Assembly (NCBI GenBank): GCA_021805585.1
Contig: JAJZEY010000499.1
Span: 1-6,873 of the forward strand
Source of the DNA: Planctomycetota bacterium
GTDB taxonomy: Bacteria > Planctomycetota > Phycisphaerae > WQYP01
Reading direction: 5' to 3'
Length of the DNA: 6,873 nt
The notes beneath the pieces were generated by a model, which did no database searches, was not told the DNA's origin, and saw only the letters and a program-made list of their open reading frames with translations. The position numbers were made by a program, and so were the translations under genes. Positions 377 through 6,873 of the stretch are shown one piece after another. The first letter of the stretch is position 1. The number at the start of each line of letters is the position of its first letter.

Positions 377-1588
377 TCAACTTGCGCCAGCTGCCGCGGC
401 CGACATAACCGGTATGGCCGCCCGGCTTTCCGCCGGGTTGTAGCGTTCGCCCAGGCTGTAATGCACGGGAACGCCGTCCTTGGTATGCAGCAGATAATAA
501 CCGCCGCGGTCCACCAGTTCTTCGTAAGGTCCAAGCACGCATTTACCCATGGGCGTGGGAATGGTAAGCAGCGGCACACGGGTGCCGGGGGCGGAAGCTA
601 AAGCCCGCAGAATGAATTGGCTTTCAGGCAATGTCAGGCGATGCTGCGGCAGAGTACCATCGGGGAACGGATGAATAAGATAGTAGGGTTTAACGGTAAC
701 CGGTCCGCCATCCAGCAAATCATACATTTGGGTAATAATGGCGGCATCGCTATTAATCCCACGGAAAAGCGGATGCTGCGTCATCATGAGAGGTGGACGC
801 GACGGTGTCAGCCGAACAAGAATATCCAGGGTTTCCAGCAGCGCAGGCGTTACTTCGCGGGGATGCACCACATGCAGAATATAGGAACTCGGCGCAAGGT
901 CGGCAATCGCCCGCCCAAGTGCCAGGTTGCGCATGATTCTGTGCGGATACCAGACCGGCTCACGCGTGTGAATACAAACAGTAATACGTCTGGAAACCCG
1001 CTGATTCAGCCGCCGCACGCGTTGGGCCAGATGGGCAATCACACCGGCCCCCACCGCCAGCGGGTCACCGCCGCTTAGAATAATTTCACGCAGTTCGGCC
1101 AGCCGAGGCGATATTTCCGCCTGGTCGAACATGGCGTCAATTTCGGCATGGGTGATGGTGCCCGGCGTCACATCGCGGTTCTTAAGATAGCAGTAACGGC
1201 ACAGCCCGCTGCAAAAATCAGTCACGCGCAGCAGGCTTTCGTAGCGGTATTTCTGAATCCATCGTGGATGGTCCACAACTTTTTCCGCAAGCTGAAACGA
1301 ATCCCAGCGTTCGGTCCCTGTATCATACAATTCACCGCTGTTGGGCAGCACCAGGTCCCAAAGCGGATCGTCGGGCTGATTGGTGAGAATATTTTCCACA
1401 TAAAACCGCGGCAGGCGGAAGGTAAATTTTCGGGCTACCTCTTCCATTTCAGCGAGGCGCGGGGCGCTGATACCGGGCAACGCAGCCGCCAAGGCGGCGA
1501 CCGATGTTATCAGGTCGGGATTATCAGTGGTTGGTGGATGCCGCGCTATATCCACAATGTTAAGTGATTTATTCTGCAAGACAGTCAT
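377..1588 (-). CDS. KamA/EpmB-family radical SAM, PLP-type protein; substrate uncertain
   Basis: A 403-residue cytoplasmic radical SAM enzyme of the lysine 2,3-aminomutase family. The 4Fe-4S cluster motif CxxxCxxC is at Cys126, Cys130 and Cys133 (CSGLCRYCY). The SAM-contacting SGGDPL is at 172-177. HTREPV (207-212), HPREVT (242-247) and the LFRGINSD stretch (274-281) fit the family backbone. Lys349 in PTPMGK aligns with the PLP-binding lysine of the family's PGGGGK motif, but that glycine-rich stretch is altered. By motif counting, the residues that bind lysine in the Clostridium enzyme (Arg134, Asp293, Asp330) correspond to Leu, His and Thr here. The C-terminal cysteines that bind zinc in that enzyme are also absent. 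I therefore do not call it lysine 2,3-aminomutase or EpmB; it may be an aminomutase acting on another amino acid or an RNA/protein-modifying relative. The ATG at 1588 has GGAG 9 nt upstream. It is transcribed away from the DAHP synthase gene. Confidence 0.9.
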   Translation of the reverse strand: MTVLQNKSLNIVDIARHPPTTDNPDLITSVAALAAALPGISAPRLAEMEEVARKFTFRLPRFYVENILTNQPDDPLWDLVLPNSGELYDTGTERWDSFQLAEKVVDHPRWIQKYRYESLLRVTDFCSGLCRYCYLKNRDVTPGTITHAEIDAMFDQAEISPRLAELREIILSGGDPLAVGAGVIAHLAQRVRRLNQRVSRRITVCIHTREPVWYPHRIMRNLALGRAIADLAPSSYILHVVHPREVTPALLETLDILVRLTPSRPPLMMTQHPLFRGINSDAAIITQMYDLLDGGPVTVKPYYLIHPFPDGTLPQHRLTLPESQFILRALASAPGTRVPLLTIPTPMGKCVLGPYEELVDRGGYYLLHTKDGVPVHYSLGERYNPAESRAAIPVMSAAAAGAS

Positions 1589-1634: not shown

Positions 1635-1714
1635 CATAGTCCGCCGGATACAAAAACCGGCCGCCCAAGGAGTAAAATCGGTTGACTTTTCGTGAATTTT
1701 CAGCCATAGTCCGC
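1635..1714. repeat. 10-bp direct repeat CATAGTCCGC, 70 bp apart, between the divergent genes
   Basis: CATAGTCCGC occurs at 1635-1644 and again at 1705-1714. The right copy covers the -10 box of the leader/DAHP synthase promoter; the left copy lies roughly where the -35 region of the kamA-like gene would be. The 70-bp centre-to-centre distance is near a whole number of helical turns. It may be a shared operator or a chance repeat. Confidence 0.35.
1682..1710 (+). promoter_or_regulatory. Sigma-70-like promoter of the leader/DAHP synthase transcript
   Basis: TTGACT (1682-1687, 5 of 6 to consensus), a 17-nt spacer, then CATAGT (1705-1710, 4 of 6). Seven nt after the -10 box is A1718, the first base of the leader peptide ATG, so transcription is predicted to start at or within a base or two of the start codon. 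This is the only good promoter match I see upstream of the leader. Confidence 0.6.
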
Positions 1715-1717
1715 ATT

Positions 1718-1813
1718 ATGAATACGGAATCCTTTAATTCCTTTCAACTGTCCAGACCGGACTTCTGGTTTGGAAGCATGTATTTTACCACCGGCTGGCG
1801 TCGGCGGACTTGA
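1718..1813 (+). CDS. Aromatic-rich leader peptide, 31 aa, for attenuation of DAHP synthase
   Basis: A short ORF starting MNTESFNSF and ending TTGWRRRT. Of 31 residues, 8 are aromatic: Phe6, Phe9, Phe16, Trp17, Phe18, Tyr22, Phe23 and Trp27. This is far above normal protein composition and is what a sensor of charged tRNA-Phe, tRNA-Tyr and tRNA-Trp should look like. The densest block (FWF at 16-18 and YF at 22-23) lies 17-40 nt before the antiterminator segment, so a ribosome stalled there would leave that segment free. A ribosome at the TGA would cover it. No Shine-Dalgarno precedes the ATG and the predicted transcription start is at the ATG itself, so translation may be leaderless. The peptide probably has no function apart from being translated. 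The logic is that of known trp and phe leaders, here applied to the first step of the shared aromatic pathway. Confidence 0.8.
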   Translation: MNTESFNSFQLSRPDFWFGSMYFTTGWRRRT

Positions 1814-1853
1814 GATTGTTTTTCAGAGTTTCTTTATCATCCTCAAGCCCGCC
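1803..1853 (+). promoter_or_regulatory. Antiterminator helix of the attenuator
   Basis: GGCGGACTTGAG (1803-1814) can pair with CTCAAGCCCGCC (1842-1853) at 11 of 12 positions; the only mismatch is A1808 opposite C1848. The 5' arm spans the last leader codons and the TGA stop. The 3' arm contains the entire 5' arm of the terminator (1845-1851), so this helix and the terminator cannot form together. The loop is 27 nt and T/A-rich. An alternative weaker hairpin, CCACCG (1788-1793) with CGGCGG (1802-1807), could hold the 5' arm when no ribosome is present. Confidence 0.75.
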
Positions 1854-1878
1854 GAAAGACGGGCTTTATTTGTTTTTA
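1845..1878 (+). terminator. Intrinsic terminator (attenuator) upstream of DAHP synthase
   Basis: AAGCCCG (1845-1851) and CGGGCTT (1860-1866) form a perfect 7-bp stem with an 8-nt loop (CCGAAAGA), followed by a T-rich tail (TATTTGTTTTTA, 1867-1878). It lies 31 nt past the leader stop codon and about 200 nt before the DAHP synthase start, on the same strand. Terminating there would make a roughly 160-nt leader RNA. Confidence 0.8.
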
Positions 1879-1892
1879 GACAGGATTCCAAT

Positions 1893-2021
1893 ATGCAAAC
1901 GACTCTTACCATGCACGTGCGGCAAAGTGTGCGGCTGGCGGCCAACGCCCTTGGGCTGGCGCGCAAAATAGAACAACAGCTTGACGAATTACGGGCCCGG
2001 CGGTTGCTTTGGCGATGCTGA
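1893..2021 (+). CDS. Possible small protein, 42 aa, between attenuator and DAHP synthase gene
   Basis: I do not recognise this ORF. It begins MQTTLTMHVRQSV and ends RARRLLWRC. AGGA at 1882-1885 lies 7 nt before the ATG, a good ribosome binding site, and the ORF starts just after the terminator's T-rich tail, so it would be made only on read-through. Residues about 12-38 are rich in Ala, Leu, Arg, Gln and Glu and look like one amphipathic, highly basic helix with no membrane character. The stop is 59 bp before the DAHP synthase ATG, so the two would share an mRNA. It might be a small partner or regulator of the enzyme, or a translated spacer that keeps ribosomes on the message. The same frame is open further upstream to 1770, but that part runs through the attenuator and has no reason to be coding. 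Confidence 0.45.
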   Translation: MQTTLTMHVRQSVRLAANALGLARKIEQQLDELRARRLLWRC

Positions 2022-2080: not shown

Positions 2081-3103
2081 ATGATTATCGTAATGGAGCA
2101 GGGTGCGACGGACGGACAGGTACAGCACGTCGTGGAACTGGTGCGGGAAATGGGCCTGCGTGAACATGTCATTGTCGGTACGGAACGAACCGTCGTGGCG
2201 GTGCTTGGAGACGACCGCGCCAAGGACAAAGACAAACTGGAAAATGCCGGCGGAGTGGAAAAGGTTATGCCGGTTCTGGCACCCTATAAAATGGCCTCCC
2301 GTGAGGTGAAAAAGGAACGCTCGGTTGTCCCGCTGGGCGGGCGGCTGGGCGGATCGGCCGGCGGAAAAAAGCTGGCCCTTATTGCCGGCCCCTGTTCGGT
2401 GGAAGACCGGGTGAAGCTGCTGGAAATAGCACACATGGTAAAAGAAGCCGGTGCCACCGGCCTGCGGGGTGGCGCATTTAAGCCGCGCACCAGCCCGTAC
2501 GCATTTCAAGGCATGGGCGAAAAAGGTCTGGAAATTCTGGCCGAAGCCCGCGAACAGACCGGTCTTGCGGTGGTAACGGAAGTCATGTCCATCGATCAGG
2601 TGGATCTGGTCTGCCGATATGCGGACGTGCTGCAGGTTGGCGCGCGAAATATGCAGAACTTCAATCTGCTTTGGGCGGTGGGTGAACAGCGCAAGCCGGT
2701 GCTGCTGAAGCGCGGCATTGCGGCCACGCTGGAGGAATTCATGCTGGCGGCGGAATACATCATGTCCCGCGGAAACAGCCAGGTTATTTTGTGCGAACGG
2801 GGCATCCGCACATTTGAAACGCATTGCCGCAATACCCTTCCCCTGGCCACCGTGCCGGAGGTTCACCGCATCAGCCACCTGCCGATTCTGGTTGATCCAT
2901 CCCAGGGAACCGGGCATGCGCATCTTGTGCCGGATATGTGCAAGGCGGCGGTCGCCTGTGGGGCGGACGGCCTGATTATTGAATGCCACAACGACCCGGA
3001 ACACGCGCTGACGGACGGCGCACAATCCATTACCCCGGCAACCTTAAAAACCATGTATGGCACGCTGAAAAAGCTGGCCGCCGCGGTAGACCGGGAAATT
3101 TAA
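2081..3103 (+). CDS. aroF: Type I DAHP synthase with N-terminal ferredoxin-like regulatory domain
   Basis: 3-deoxy-D-arabino-heptulosonate-7-phosphate synthase condenses phosphoenolpyruvate and erythrose 4-phosphate, the committed step to chorismate, Phe, Tyr and Trp; it is cytoplasmic. At 340 residues it matches the Thermotoga type. Residues 1 to about 70 form a ferredoxin-like, ACT-like domain (MIIVMEQGAT start), which in that group binds Tyr or Phe for feedback inhibition. The TIM barrel follows: AGPCSVE (102-108), GGAFKPRTSPYAFQG (130-144), LQVGARNMQNF (184-194), LLKRG (208-212), ERGIRTFET (239-247). Metal ligands Cys105, Glu301 and Asp312 are present. The fourth, normally His in DPSH, is Gln275 (codon CAG at 2903-2905), which is odd. 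ATG 2081 has AGGA 7 nt upstream and the usual family N-terminus. Expression should be controlled by the upstream attenuator. No clear terminator follows; a GGCGG/CCGCC hairpin at 3128-3140 lacks a T-run. The downstream gene is convergent. Confidence 0.93.
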   Translation: MIIVMEQGATDGQVQHVVELVREMGLREHVIVGTERTVVAVLGDDRAKDKDKLENAGGVEKVMPVLAPYKMASREVKKERSVVPLGGRLGGSAGGKKLALIAGPCSVEDRVKLLEIAHMVKEAGATGLRGGAFKPRTSPYAFQGMGEKGLEILAEAREQTGLAVVTEVMSIDQVDLVCRYADVLQVGARNMQNFNLLWAVGEQRKPVLLKRGIAATLEEFMLAAEYIMSRGNSQVILCERGIRTFETHCRNTLPLATVPEVHRISHLPILVDPSQGTGHAHLVPDMCKAAVACGADGLIIECHNDPEHALTDGAQSITPATLKTMYGTLKKLAAAVDREI

Positions 3104-5225: not shown

Positions 5226-5249
5226 TCACATTGGTGTCATGGAATGTGA
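5226..5249 (-). repeat. Inverted repeat spanning the stop codon of the unassigned gene
   Basis: TCACATT (5226-5232) and AATGTGA (5243-5249) are perfect inverted arms around a 10-nt loop that contains the TGA stop at 5237-5239. There is no T-run after it on the minus strand. It may be a 3'-end hairpin or a protein-binding dyad (TGTGA/TCACA resembles half-sites of CRP-like regulators), or chance. Confidence 0.3.
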
Positions 5250-6873
5250 CGTTTGTCCAATAGAAAGATAACCGTGCGGCGCGGCGGAAGTTTTAACCTC
5301 TGGTCCAGTTTCATTATTTTTCCGGAAACAAGGTCACGCGCGGGCAGGCCGTATCCCTTCCGCGGGGTGAAGGTCCAACTATGATGACGCGAACAATTCA
5401 TGCCAATAATCCATGGGCCGTAGCGCAACACATACAATCCGGCCCGCCCCAGGTAAGGACCATAGTGGCCACGCCCAAACATTCCAAAATGACCCGCGGT
5501 TTTAATATACCCGTGCGGCAGAACCGGGATGGGCATTTTGCCGCCGGCGTAGGCTTCATGAATTCTGTTGCCGGGCGGAATAAAACCATGAAACTGCAAT
5601 TGATCTATATCATCCGGGCGAATATACACCTGGCCGCTGGGTATGAATTTGACCTGTTCGTGGCAGCGCACCAGGCGATCCACCGTGGGCGTGGTGAAGT
5701 GGATCCGAGCCAGGGAATTGATACCCGAATACGCACGATAGTAAAGCGATGCATACAGCCGCAGATGGCCGCGTTTAACAGCCACAACTCCGTCCTGCGG
5801 ATCGGCCCAGGCGAAATTCCGCTGTCCCGGCGTCATGGGCAGACGCACTCCGGTGATCGGCAATTTAATAACCGCGGCATACTGCCGCGGAATTTGCAGG
5901 AGGGATTTTATCATGGCACTGCCGGACGAATTGAGCATCGGAACGATGGATTGAAAAAACTGATGGTCTTCCAGGCACTGTTGGGCATAACCGATGATGG
6001 CACGTGATTTCATTTCAGGCAGCGCCGCACATTCCAGTGCAAAGCCCTGAATATTGCGGTCCCCATAGCAGACTTCCTCGGGGTACAGGTTGTGCCGCCA
6101 GCCGATTACTCCCTCCAGCCGCATGGCCCGATAGCCATTATGGTCCGCGCCCGGCTGCATGAAATAGCCGCGGGCCTTAATCATTCTAATTAATTGTGCG
6201 TTAATTTTTGAATTTCCGCCGGTGGCTTCGGACATCTGCCACAGAAAATGCGTAATGGTTTCTCCATAGCTGGCCACATAGCCAAGTTCGCGCGAAAGCC
6301 CGGCCTTTGTCACCAGAAAATAATGGTGCCCGAAAGGCCATTGCCACCCGTGGGCAAGCTTGTTTCCGCGGAACCGCACAAGCCCGATCGCCTCATACAG
6401 ATACCACAAAGCCTTTTTTTCAGGCATGGCCGCGGATGGTTCCAGAATTTCCAGCCCGCGATTGGCCGTGTATATGTTGTAATTCACGATCATGACCTGA
6501 TTGGTATAAAACCGCTGATGGGTCTGTTCGTAGGCAATGGTCCGGGCAAGAAGTTTTGCCCAGGCGATGCGCCTCGGCAGGCGTTGTCCGTCAACCAGTT
6601 GGATCGTTTTATCCAGATATGGCGATAATTGTTTTTTTAACAGCATAATCGCCCGCCCAATCGGCCCGTAGAGCCGCCAGGAAATATTCGCCTCATTGTG
6701 TTGGCCGTGTCCGCGTGCCAGGGCATCTATATCGCGGATAATTCGTGCAATCACGCGTGGGTTCTTATAGGCTGCGCACCAGGGGATCGTATAGGCGCGG
6801 GCCAGCATTTCCAGCCGCTGCGGCCCATCCAGCGACTTGCCACCAAGGAGTCGCAAAAGTACGGAATTCACAT
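5237..6873 (-). CDS. Large uncharacterised protein, C-terminal 544 residues (start beyond right edge)
   Basis: I cannot assign a function. The frame stays open to the window edge (a GTG at 6871 is probably internal), so the true start and any signal peptide are missing. The first roughly 320 residues are helical, with many aromatic, His and Asn residues; the most distinctive block is FYTNQVMIVNYNIYTANRGL (121-140), followed by GLSRELGYVASYGE (191-204), GYRAMRLEGVIGWRH (246-260) and a QQCLEDHQFF stretch (297-306). From about 330 to the end it looks beta-rich, ending LPPRRTVIFLLDKRHIP. A helical toroid followed by a beta-sandwich is the plan of several polysaccharide lyases (heparinase-like, PL8-like), and the block style recalls large unannotated proteins of Planctomycetota and Bacteroidota, but I see no lyase signature I can name. 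Upstream of and on the same strand as the symporter, which would fit degradation and uptake of one substrate. Confidence 0.7.
   Translation of the reverse strand, partial: VNSVLLRLLGGKSLDGPQRLEMLARAYTIPWCAAYKNPRVIARIIRDIDALARGHGQHNEANISWRLYGPIGRAIMLLKKQLSPYLDKTIQLVDGQRLPRRIAWAKLLARTIAYEQTHQRFYTNQVMIVNYNIYTANRGLEILEPSAAMPEKKALWYLYEAIGLVRFRGNKLAHGWQWPFGHHYFLVTKAGLSRELGYVASYGETITHFLWQMSEATGGNSKINAQLIRMIKARGYFMQPGADHNGYRAMRLEGVIGWRHNLYPEEVCYGDRNIQGFALECAALPEMKSRAIIGYAQQCLEDHQFFQSIVPMLNSSGSAMIKSLLQIPRQYAAVIKLPITGVRLPMTPGQRNFAWADPQDGVVAVKRGHLRLYASLYYRAYSGINSLARIHFTTPTVDRLVRCHEQVKFIPSGQVYIRPDDIDQLQFHGFIPPGNRIHEAYAGGKMPIPVLPHGYIKTAGHFGMFGRGHYGPYLGRAGLYVLRYGPWIIGMNCSRHHSWTFTPRKGYGLPARDLVSGKIMKLDQRLKLPPRRTVIFLLDKRHIP

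Follow-up and report, generated by a model that had tools for sequence, protein, structure and literature searches.

The gene aroF encodes DAHP synthase, and in the planctomycete DNA studied here it is preceded by a short open reading frame (ORF) rich in aromatic codons and by a terminator-like hairpin. The question that this locus raises is whether these elements act together as a ribosome-mediated attenuator, and which amino acids such an attenuator would sense. In the trp and pheA attenuators of Escherichia coli, the leaders of which have Shine-Dalgarno sites, the stalling of a ribosome sets free an antiterminator strand close to the leader stop codon, and without a stall the terminator forms; in attenuators of the ilvB and ilvG type, one leader reads several branched-chain amino acids. 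An earlier note on this DNA, made from the sequence alone, had read the region as a complete attenuator upstream of a DAHP synthase gene, responding to the combined supply of Phe, Tyr and Trp, in what might be a bacterium of the PVC group. The latter guess was correct: the analysed stretch of 6,873 nucleotides (hereafter the window) derives from Planctomycetota, Phycisphaerae, as do the nearest named relatives of its aroF. Here, we describe the anatomy of the region, its conservation, the compensatory changes in its helices and the predicted switching of the window leader. Very probably, aroF is controlled by ribosome-mediated transcription attenuation, with the leader sensing the charged tRNAs of Phe, Tyr and Trp jointly.

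Results

Organisation of the aroF locus

In 5' to 3' direction, the locus consists of a promoter, the leader ORF, an antiterminator strand over its stop codon, a terminator, a second small ORF and aroF. The features are as follows:

1682..1710, + strand: sigma-70-type promoter, TTGACT-N17-CATAGT (9 of 12 matches)
1718..1813, + strand: leader peptide ORF of 31 codons plus TGA stop, with 8 aromatic codons, predicted to be leaderless (ATG 7 nt 3' of the -10 box)
1751..1774, + strand: candidate pause hairpin over the Phe16-Trp17-Phe18 codons (predicted fold)
1763..1786, + strand: predicted sensor codons Phe16, Trp17, Phe18, Tyr22 and Phe23 (fold model of stalls)
1803..1814, + strand: antiterminator 5' strand, across the leader stop codon (pairing, duplex energy)
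1842..1853, + strand: antiterminator 3' strand, which includes the terminator 5' arm (pairing, duplex energy)
1845..1878, + strand: intrinsic terminator, stem 1845-1851/1860-1866 and U-rich tract 1867-1878 (terminator scan, helix alignment)
1893..2021, + strand: sORF2, a conserved small ORF of 42 codons with an invariant Trp near its end (alignment, pN/pS, profile search)
2081..3103, + strand: aroF, type I-beta DAHP synthase of 340 amino acids (TIGR01361, PRK08673, PF00793, PF18152)

The leader ORF opens at the ATG at position 1718, encodes MNTESFNSFQLSRPDFWFGSMYFTTGWRRRT and ends with TGA at 1811-1813; its aromatic codons are 5 Phe, 1 Tyr and 2 Trp. In the terminator, AAGCCCG (1845-1851) pairs with CGGGCTT (1860-1866) to give a stem of 7 pairs with a loop of 8 nucleotides, followed by TATTTGTTTTTA. 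Of the 12 positions of the segment 1803-1814 (GGCGGACTTGAG), near the leader stop, 11 pair with 1842-1853 (CTCAAGCCCGCC); this pairing takes in the entire 5' arm of the terminator, and antiterminator and terminator are mutually exclusive. The earlier note had described the 31-codon leader with 8 aromatic codons, the terminator at 1845-1878 and the pairing of 11 of 12 positions over the whole terminator arm, and all three were borne out by our reading of the sequence. The promoter, the position of the ATG at the expected transcription start and the small ORF at 1893-2021 were absent from it.

The antiterminator duplex of the window amounts to -21.4 kcal/mol, a value equalled by 1 of 200 shuffles, and the leader region of 161 nt folds with -49.8 kcal/mol (z = -4.0, 200 shuffles). 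Taken alone, the hairpin and the promoter mean little, the window having 11 terminator-like sites (1845-1866 included) compared to 9.7 in shuffles, and 10 promoter-like sites compared to 5.0. The N-terminus of AroF is a ferredoxin-like domain. Upstream of the locus, a divergent radical SAM gene (377-1588, minus strand) is related to lysine 2,3-aminomutase and EpmB, with scores below every curated cut-off. A plain terminator of the upstream gene was ruled out as an explanation of the hairpin, as this neighbour is oppositely oriented and a promoter lies just 5'. The 544-codon ORF at 5237-6871 (minus strand) had no match in NCBIfam or Pfam.

Conservation of leader and terminator in Phycisphaerae

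Relatives were collected in two groups. Group A is the GTDB order of the window, of which 28 genomes were searched; 25 had an orthologous aroF (77-94% identity) and 3 a paralog only, and the group totals 26 loci with the window included. Before this, a single scan for relatives had given 16 loci; aroF of L001 is 94% identical to that of the window. In the scan for leader and terminator, a region scored if 5 or more aromatic residues fell within the last 22 codons of an ORF and a terminator was present as well. Leader and terminator were present in 25 of the 26 loci, 22 of them recognised by the scan (among these L021, the ORF of which was corrected by eye) and three by eye (L042, L044 and L045, missed by the scan because their loops are too long). 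In L040, neither a leader nor a terminator was found. Typical leaders of this group are MKSDRPFCLAKSTGDGYRFWFYYFTGALRRAG and MNHVALAIRPLPAGAHDRFWFFYFTGLGPRA.

For group B, 298 genomes of the class were searched and 80 upstream regions were fetched besides those returned as loci. Here, in 16 of 19 loci (L022 and L052-L069; aroF identity 67-73%), the leader followed the pattern FGFWFxGYFYPAxxxAS and the terminator was AAGCCTCAGGACGCGGTCCTGGGGCTT or one related to this sequence. The other three, L062, L065 and L066, gave no score in the leader and terminator scan. Only two of the 67 loci L070-L136 scored, L081 and L082, which we put in group B as less certain members. In total, 45 of the 127 distinct loci from the Phycisphaerae search scored, and the curated set consists of 43 loci, 25 of group A and 18 of group B. 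The scan was positive for 40 of the 43 curated loci, whereas only 8 of 860 sequences scored when these regions were dinucleotide-shuffled; thus, although terminator and promoter each mean little alone, the combination of an aromatic-rich ORF with a terminator is non-random. Among the 84 other loci, 5 were positive.

A covariance model of group B (R1, built from 14 training sequences) gave 18 strong matches (E <= 2e-13) in the 298 genomes, every one of them upstream of aroF and none upstream of any other gene. These were the 14 training loci, 2 known loci outside the training set and 2 new loci, both before an aroF. One of the 6 weak matches (L205, E = 0.001) is the group A leader of the L018 genome, found in this way from group B alone; the genome of L204 is without aroF. 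In the genomes of L081 and L082, R1 had no match in this search.

Upstream of paralogous DAHP synthase genes (46-50% identity; L137-L155 and L047-L051), 2 of 24 loci scored, some of these upstream sequences being short. In L048, whose genome is without an orthologous aroF, the ORF AIAYYTFYFSFLYIIWSYWR stands before a terminator-like hairpin upstream of such a paralog; this ORF is very rich in aromatic residues and lies in AT-rich DNA, and the region could be either an attenuator in its own right or an AT-rich promoter.

Conservation of the two helices

When its 5' strand was shuffled, the antiterminator duplex was better than 95% of the shuffles in 34 of the 43 curated loci (group A, 18 of 25; group B, 16 of 18), with near-identical loci counted separately, and failed this level in 9. 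Comparing own with swapped pairing is uninformative inside a group because the stems are alike.

The helix alignment of group B comprised 16 of the 18 loci, L081 and L082 being left out. The shuffles leave relatedness in place, and the helix numbers are therefore to be read as supportive and not as probabilities: in the terminator, 95.8% of cells were paired and 9 cells in three pairs were changed on both sides (0 of 500 shuffles as high), and in the antiterminator, 90.0% of cells were paired and two pairs had both-side changes, a level that 4 of 500 shuffles reached. Among the slid controls of the group B antiterminator, one had more changed cells and one had an equal number. One both-side change, in L063, falls within the terminator loop and therefore benefits only the antiterminator. 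Within the group B leader, the GYFYP codons are covered by a third helix, which had 10 cells changed on both sides, again with 0 of 500 shuffles as high.

In group A, 14 of the 25 loci were aligned. L030 and L046 were omitted as near-identical to L031, and nine loci (L021, L028, L029, L037, L038, L039, L042, L044 and L045) were omitted since their switch register was not expected to match. Terminator and antiterminator were paired in 94.6% and 84.0% of cells, respectively. Changes on both sides amounted to one pair and two cells per helix, in the same column of both helices at once (L041 and L043). The slid controls exceeded the group A antiterminator in changed-pair counts and covariation score, whereas the antiterminator exceeded all of them in the percentage paired. 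A 1:2 protector helix, i.e. pairing of the leader with the antiterminator strand, had little support, as this pairing was on average not beyond chance (mean z -0.8; z <= -2 in 8 of 41 leaders).

In sum, the attenuator reading of the earlier note survived the comparison with relatives: leader ORF and terminator are kept in nearly all loci of the same order, Phe, Tyr and Trp are all present in 40 of 42 leaders, and compensatory changes occur in both helices, clear in group B and few in group A.

Aromatic leaders of aroF in other bacterial groups

We extended the search to the classes of two more distant relatives. Relative L012 is deltaproteobacterial; we searched 79 genomes of its class and took the 30 best aroF loci. 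The scan was positive in 28 of these 30 (e.g. NFRFWFSYYFYGQVCPSLRRT), an aromatic-rich ORF was present in all 30, and 27 had Phe, Tyr and Trp together. These loci (L156-L185) form a second family of aromatic leaders before aroF, and many of the leaders end in VCPSLRR or a similar sequence; conservation of the VCP codons may be due to pairing of the RNA and not to a function of the peptide.

In Planctomycetia, the class of L010, 148 genomes were searched and 29 new loci were taken (L210-L238). The scan was positive in 14 (e.g. GYWWWARSFTEWTAAGRRAMLGL), and leader and terminator were recognised by eye in 9 more (L219, L224, L225, L226, L228, L229, L231, L232 and L234); the other 6 were without a clear leader and terminator. 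In these loci, leaders such as RAWWWSWAFTR and GYWWWARSFTEW go along with long, GC-rich terminators before aroF.

The leader is predicted to be leaderless

A start was assigned in 42 of the 43 curated Phycisphaerae loci, L081 being without assignment. In these 42 leaders, TTGAC lies 35-40 nt before the assigned start (at 35 in 22 of them), a spacing that is partly built in as the starts were picked partly by promoter distance, and in 41 leaders the assigned -10 box ends 6-12 nt before the start. The promoter of the window sets the transcription start approximately at the A of the leader ATG. Given the spacing of 35-40 nt, the leader mRNA should therefore be leaderless, and the short gap between -10 box and start offers hardly any space for a Shine-Dalgarno site, provided that transcription starts in the usual way.

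Elsewhere in the 100 nt upstream, TTGAC is scarce, with 6 other occurrences. In the deltaproteobacterial leaders, assigned by another rule, the distance from TTGAC to the start is 52-79 nt in 28 of 30 (19 nt in one; one without TTGAC in range), and a Shine-Dalgarno-like triplet, defined by a loose pattern, is present in 22 of 30. From this contrast and from the scarcity of TTGAC, we argue that the narrow spacing in Phycisphaerae is real.

Predicted switching and the amino acids sensed

Switching was modelled by equilibrium folding of the RNA free 3' of the ribosome, with 12 nt counted from the first base of the A-site codon. In the window, the probability of the terminator was 0.95-0.96 by two measures with the ribosome at the stop codon, compared to 0.00 with the ribosome stalled at Phe16, Trp17, Phe18, Tyr22 or Phe23; thus, each of the three amino acids is represented by at least one codon at a position where it can act. 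With a stall at Trp27 (1796-1798), the terminator remained at 0.90-0.92, and this codon is predicted not to act. The terminator probability of the window RNA without a ribosome was about 0, so that an untranslated leader should read through. Such predicted antitermination differs from classical superattenuation.

The same model was applied to the 42 leaders. The terminator exceeded 0.8 in the stop state in 41 of them and fell below 0.2 with at least one aromatic stall in 24, with both behaviours in 23. By equilibrium folding, no aromatic stall brought the terminator below 0.2 in 18 of the 42 loci, and in L028 the terminator did not form in the stop state either. Codons of all three amino acids acted in 10 leaders. 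Real folding occurs during transcription, where the antiterminator can form first.

Based on these predictions, we propose the following mechanism. Transcription would begin at, or about 1 nt from, the leader ATG, as suggested by the promoter geometry, and a ribosome would load on the 5' end of the RNA as it emerges. If Phe, Tyr and Trp are plentiful, the ribosome would reach the stop codon at 1811 and cover 1803-1814, and the terminator stem 1845-1866 would form. If any one of them is short, the ribosome would stall at Phe16, Trp17, Phe18, Tyr22 or Phe23, 1803-1814 would pair with 1842-1853, the terminator would not form, and the polymerase would continue into sORF2 and aroF. We infer that the leader is transcribed and translated and that it answers to the tRNAs of these amino acids, and hence a response to the supply of Phe, Tyr and Trp.

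In a rival reading, the attenuator would work but sense mainly Phe, or Phe and Tyr, with the Trp codons being compositional and of little effect. Among the aromatic codons of 41 leaders, those for Phe are the most frequent (177 Phe, 90 Tyr and 52 Trp), and an effective Trp stall was predicted in only 12 of 42 loci, compared to 20 for Phe and 21 for Tyr. In addition, the aroR leader of Corynebacterium glutamicum has Phe and Tyr codons, yet in the parts of the report considered here Phe limitation raises transcription and Tyr supply has no effect (PMC11802643). However, Trp is present in 41 of 42 leaders, as is Tyr, and the model of the window gives stalls at Trp17 and at Phe the same effect. 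We thus regard a sensor of mainly Phe as rather unlikely, although it deserves to be kept in mind, and prefer an attenuator that senses all three.

Alternatively, the ORF might encode a small functional peptide, e.g. a membrane-bound or trans-acting one, the terminator being merely constitutive. The leader has a pN/pS of 0.59 (8 pairs), and leader peptides can act in trans, as described for peTrpL of Sinorhizobium meliloti in the parts of PMC7298713 considered. The leaders share little sequence outside the aromatic cluster, however, length and codons vary freely in group A, and it is the RNA pairing that is kept, with compensatory changes, which makes a functional peptide very improbable compared to the attenuator.

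A search of Rfam gave no match for the window up to E = 1, T-box included, and for 15 relatives, up to E = 0.1, no regulatory RNA family, no T-box and no match at the switch; the matches in the relatives were one tRNA and one microRNA, the latter below its gathering score. T-boxes on aromatic genes are known in low-GC Gram-positive bacteria and share the terminator/antiterminator anatomy, but control of aroF by a T-box or another ligand- or tRNA-binding RNA, with a fortuitous ORF, can practically be dismissed given these searches and an aromatic-codon ORF that is conserved throughout group A except in L040.

A second small ORF between terminator and aroF

sORF2 is found in 23 of the 26 group A loci and is absent from L033, L036 and L040. 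Met1, a Leu, an Ile and a Trp close to the C-terminus are common to the 21 aligned sequences (L030 and L046 omitted as near-identical), and pN/pS is 0.39 (7 pairs). A profile search of 5.8 billion proteins returned 14 clusters including that of the window; the three with an organism name are from Phycisphaerae or Phycisphaerales, and the proteins are hypothetical where named. sORF2 is probably a real small protein, one that the switch does not require.

Immediately before the invariant Trp, all 15 sequences with Leu use CTT, and the wobble position of this codon is T in 19 of 20; the other invariant Leu and Ile columns have mixed codons, and CTT makes up about one fifth of the Leu codons in three genes of the window. 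We suspect from this codon usage that the 3' end of sORF2 is also constrained at the nucleotide level, with the signal CTTTGGCG. No pairing was detected between the CTTTGG motif and the ribosome-binding site of aroF (mean z -0.1). We also considered sORF2 as a second Trp attenuator and rejected it, as it has one Trp codon and, in the window, no terminator-like site lies between 2021 and aroF.

Discussion

Attenuation at DAHP synthase as such is not new. The earlier note had called attenuation at this first step unusual and perhaps undescribed; the claim did not hold for the step itself, which is under described control in C. glutamicum (aroR-aroF) and proposed control in Acholeplasma, but the three-amino-acid form in planctomycetes appears to be undescribed. 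In the open-access literature, we recognised no aroF attenuator of Planctomycetota or Deltaproteobacteria among the matches listed. As far as searched, the occurrence of such attenuation across Planctomycetota, a leader with codons for all three amino acids and its leaderless form are new.

The closest known system is the aroR leader of C. glutamicum, for which attenuation of aroF is established (PMC11802643, PMC4046766). According to the parts of these reports considered, it likewise has a leader peptide with aromatic codons and acts directly upstream of the DAHP synthase gene; unlike the window leader, it has Phe-Tyr-Phe only, responds to Phe and not to Tyr, and belongs to a different phylum, the two being compared by description. 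The uORFC-13-1 motif before aroF of Acholeplasma is a computed element proposed to be an attenuator, in which promoter elements, a uORF containing Phe codons and a terminator directly precede aroF (PMC8632094). It differs in that its 24 representatives have at least one Phe codon and a ribosome-binding site, Trp and Tyr codons being unmentioned in the sections of that paper that we consulted. Also, aroF of Shewanella is among predicted regulatory RNAs in the consulted part of PMC2659441.

With trp and pheA of E. coli, the window shares the stall-freed antiterminator near the leader stop (see also the corresponding part of PMC11802643); these guard end branches and read one amino acid, whereas the window leader stands at the common first step and has codons for three. 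The ilvB and ilvG types are alike in reading several amino acids per leader and differ in pathway and phylum. Leaders that begin at their own ATG have precedents: the title of a paper from 2000 on ilvBNC of C. glutamicum reports a leader peptide formed without a ribosome binding site (cited in PMC4046766), and the mRNA for the trpL leader peptide of S. meliloti starts at its own ATG and is possibly leaderless, as stated in the consulted part of PMC7298713. The latter system differs in that it serves trp genes and in that its leader RNA and peptide also act in trans (PMC7298713).

A survey from 2010 stated that, to its authors' knowledge, no phyla other than Proteobacteria and Actinobacteria had been shown to have leader peptide systems until their own case in Firmicutes (PMC2965389). 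Leader systems of aroF are now seen in two planctomycete classes. The supposed nucleus-like compartment of planctomycetes is disputed, according to the parts of three reports considered (PMC5287468, PMC6212462, PMC6554331).

It is conceivable, and we offer it tentatively with more doubt than conviction, that the first aromatic step in Planctomycetota was ancestrally controlled by leaderless attenuation through three amino acids, a control spread over at least two classes, that it shows physical coupling of transcription and translation, and that one order has added sORF2 (35-52 residues) as a second layer of control on DAHP synthase. Ribosome-mediated attenuation requires a ribosome close behind the polymerase, and a conserved attenuator is therefore genome-level evidence for such coupling in Planctomycetota and makes this question testable. 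With a response to all three supplies, the leader would also be a natural three-input sensor for aromatic amino acids.
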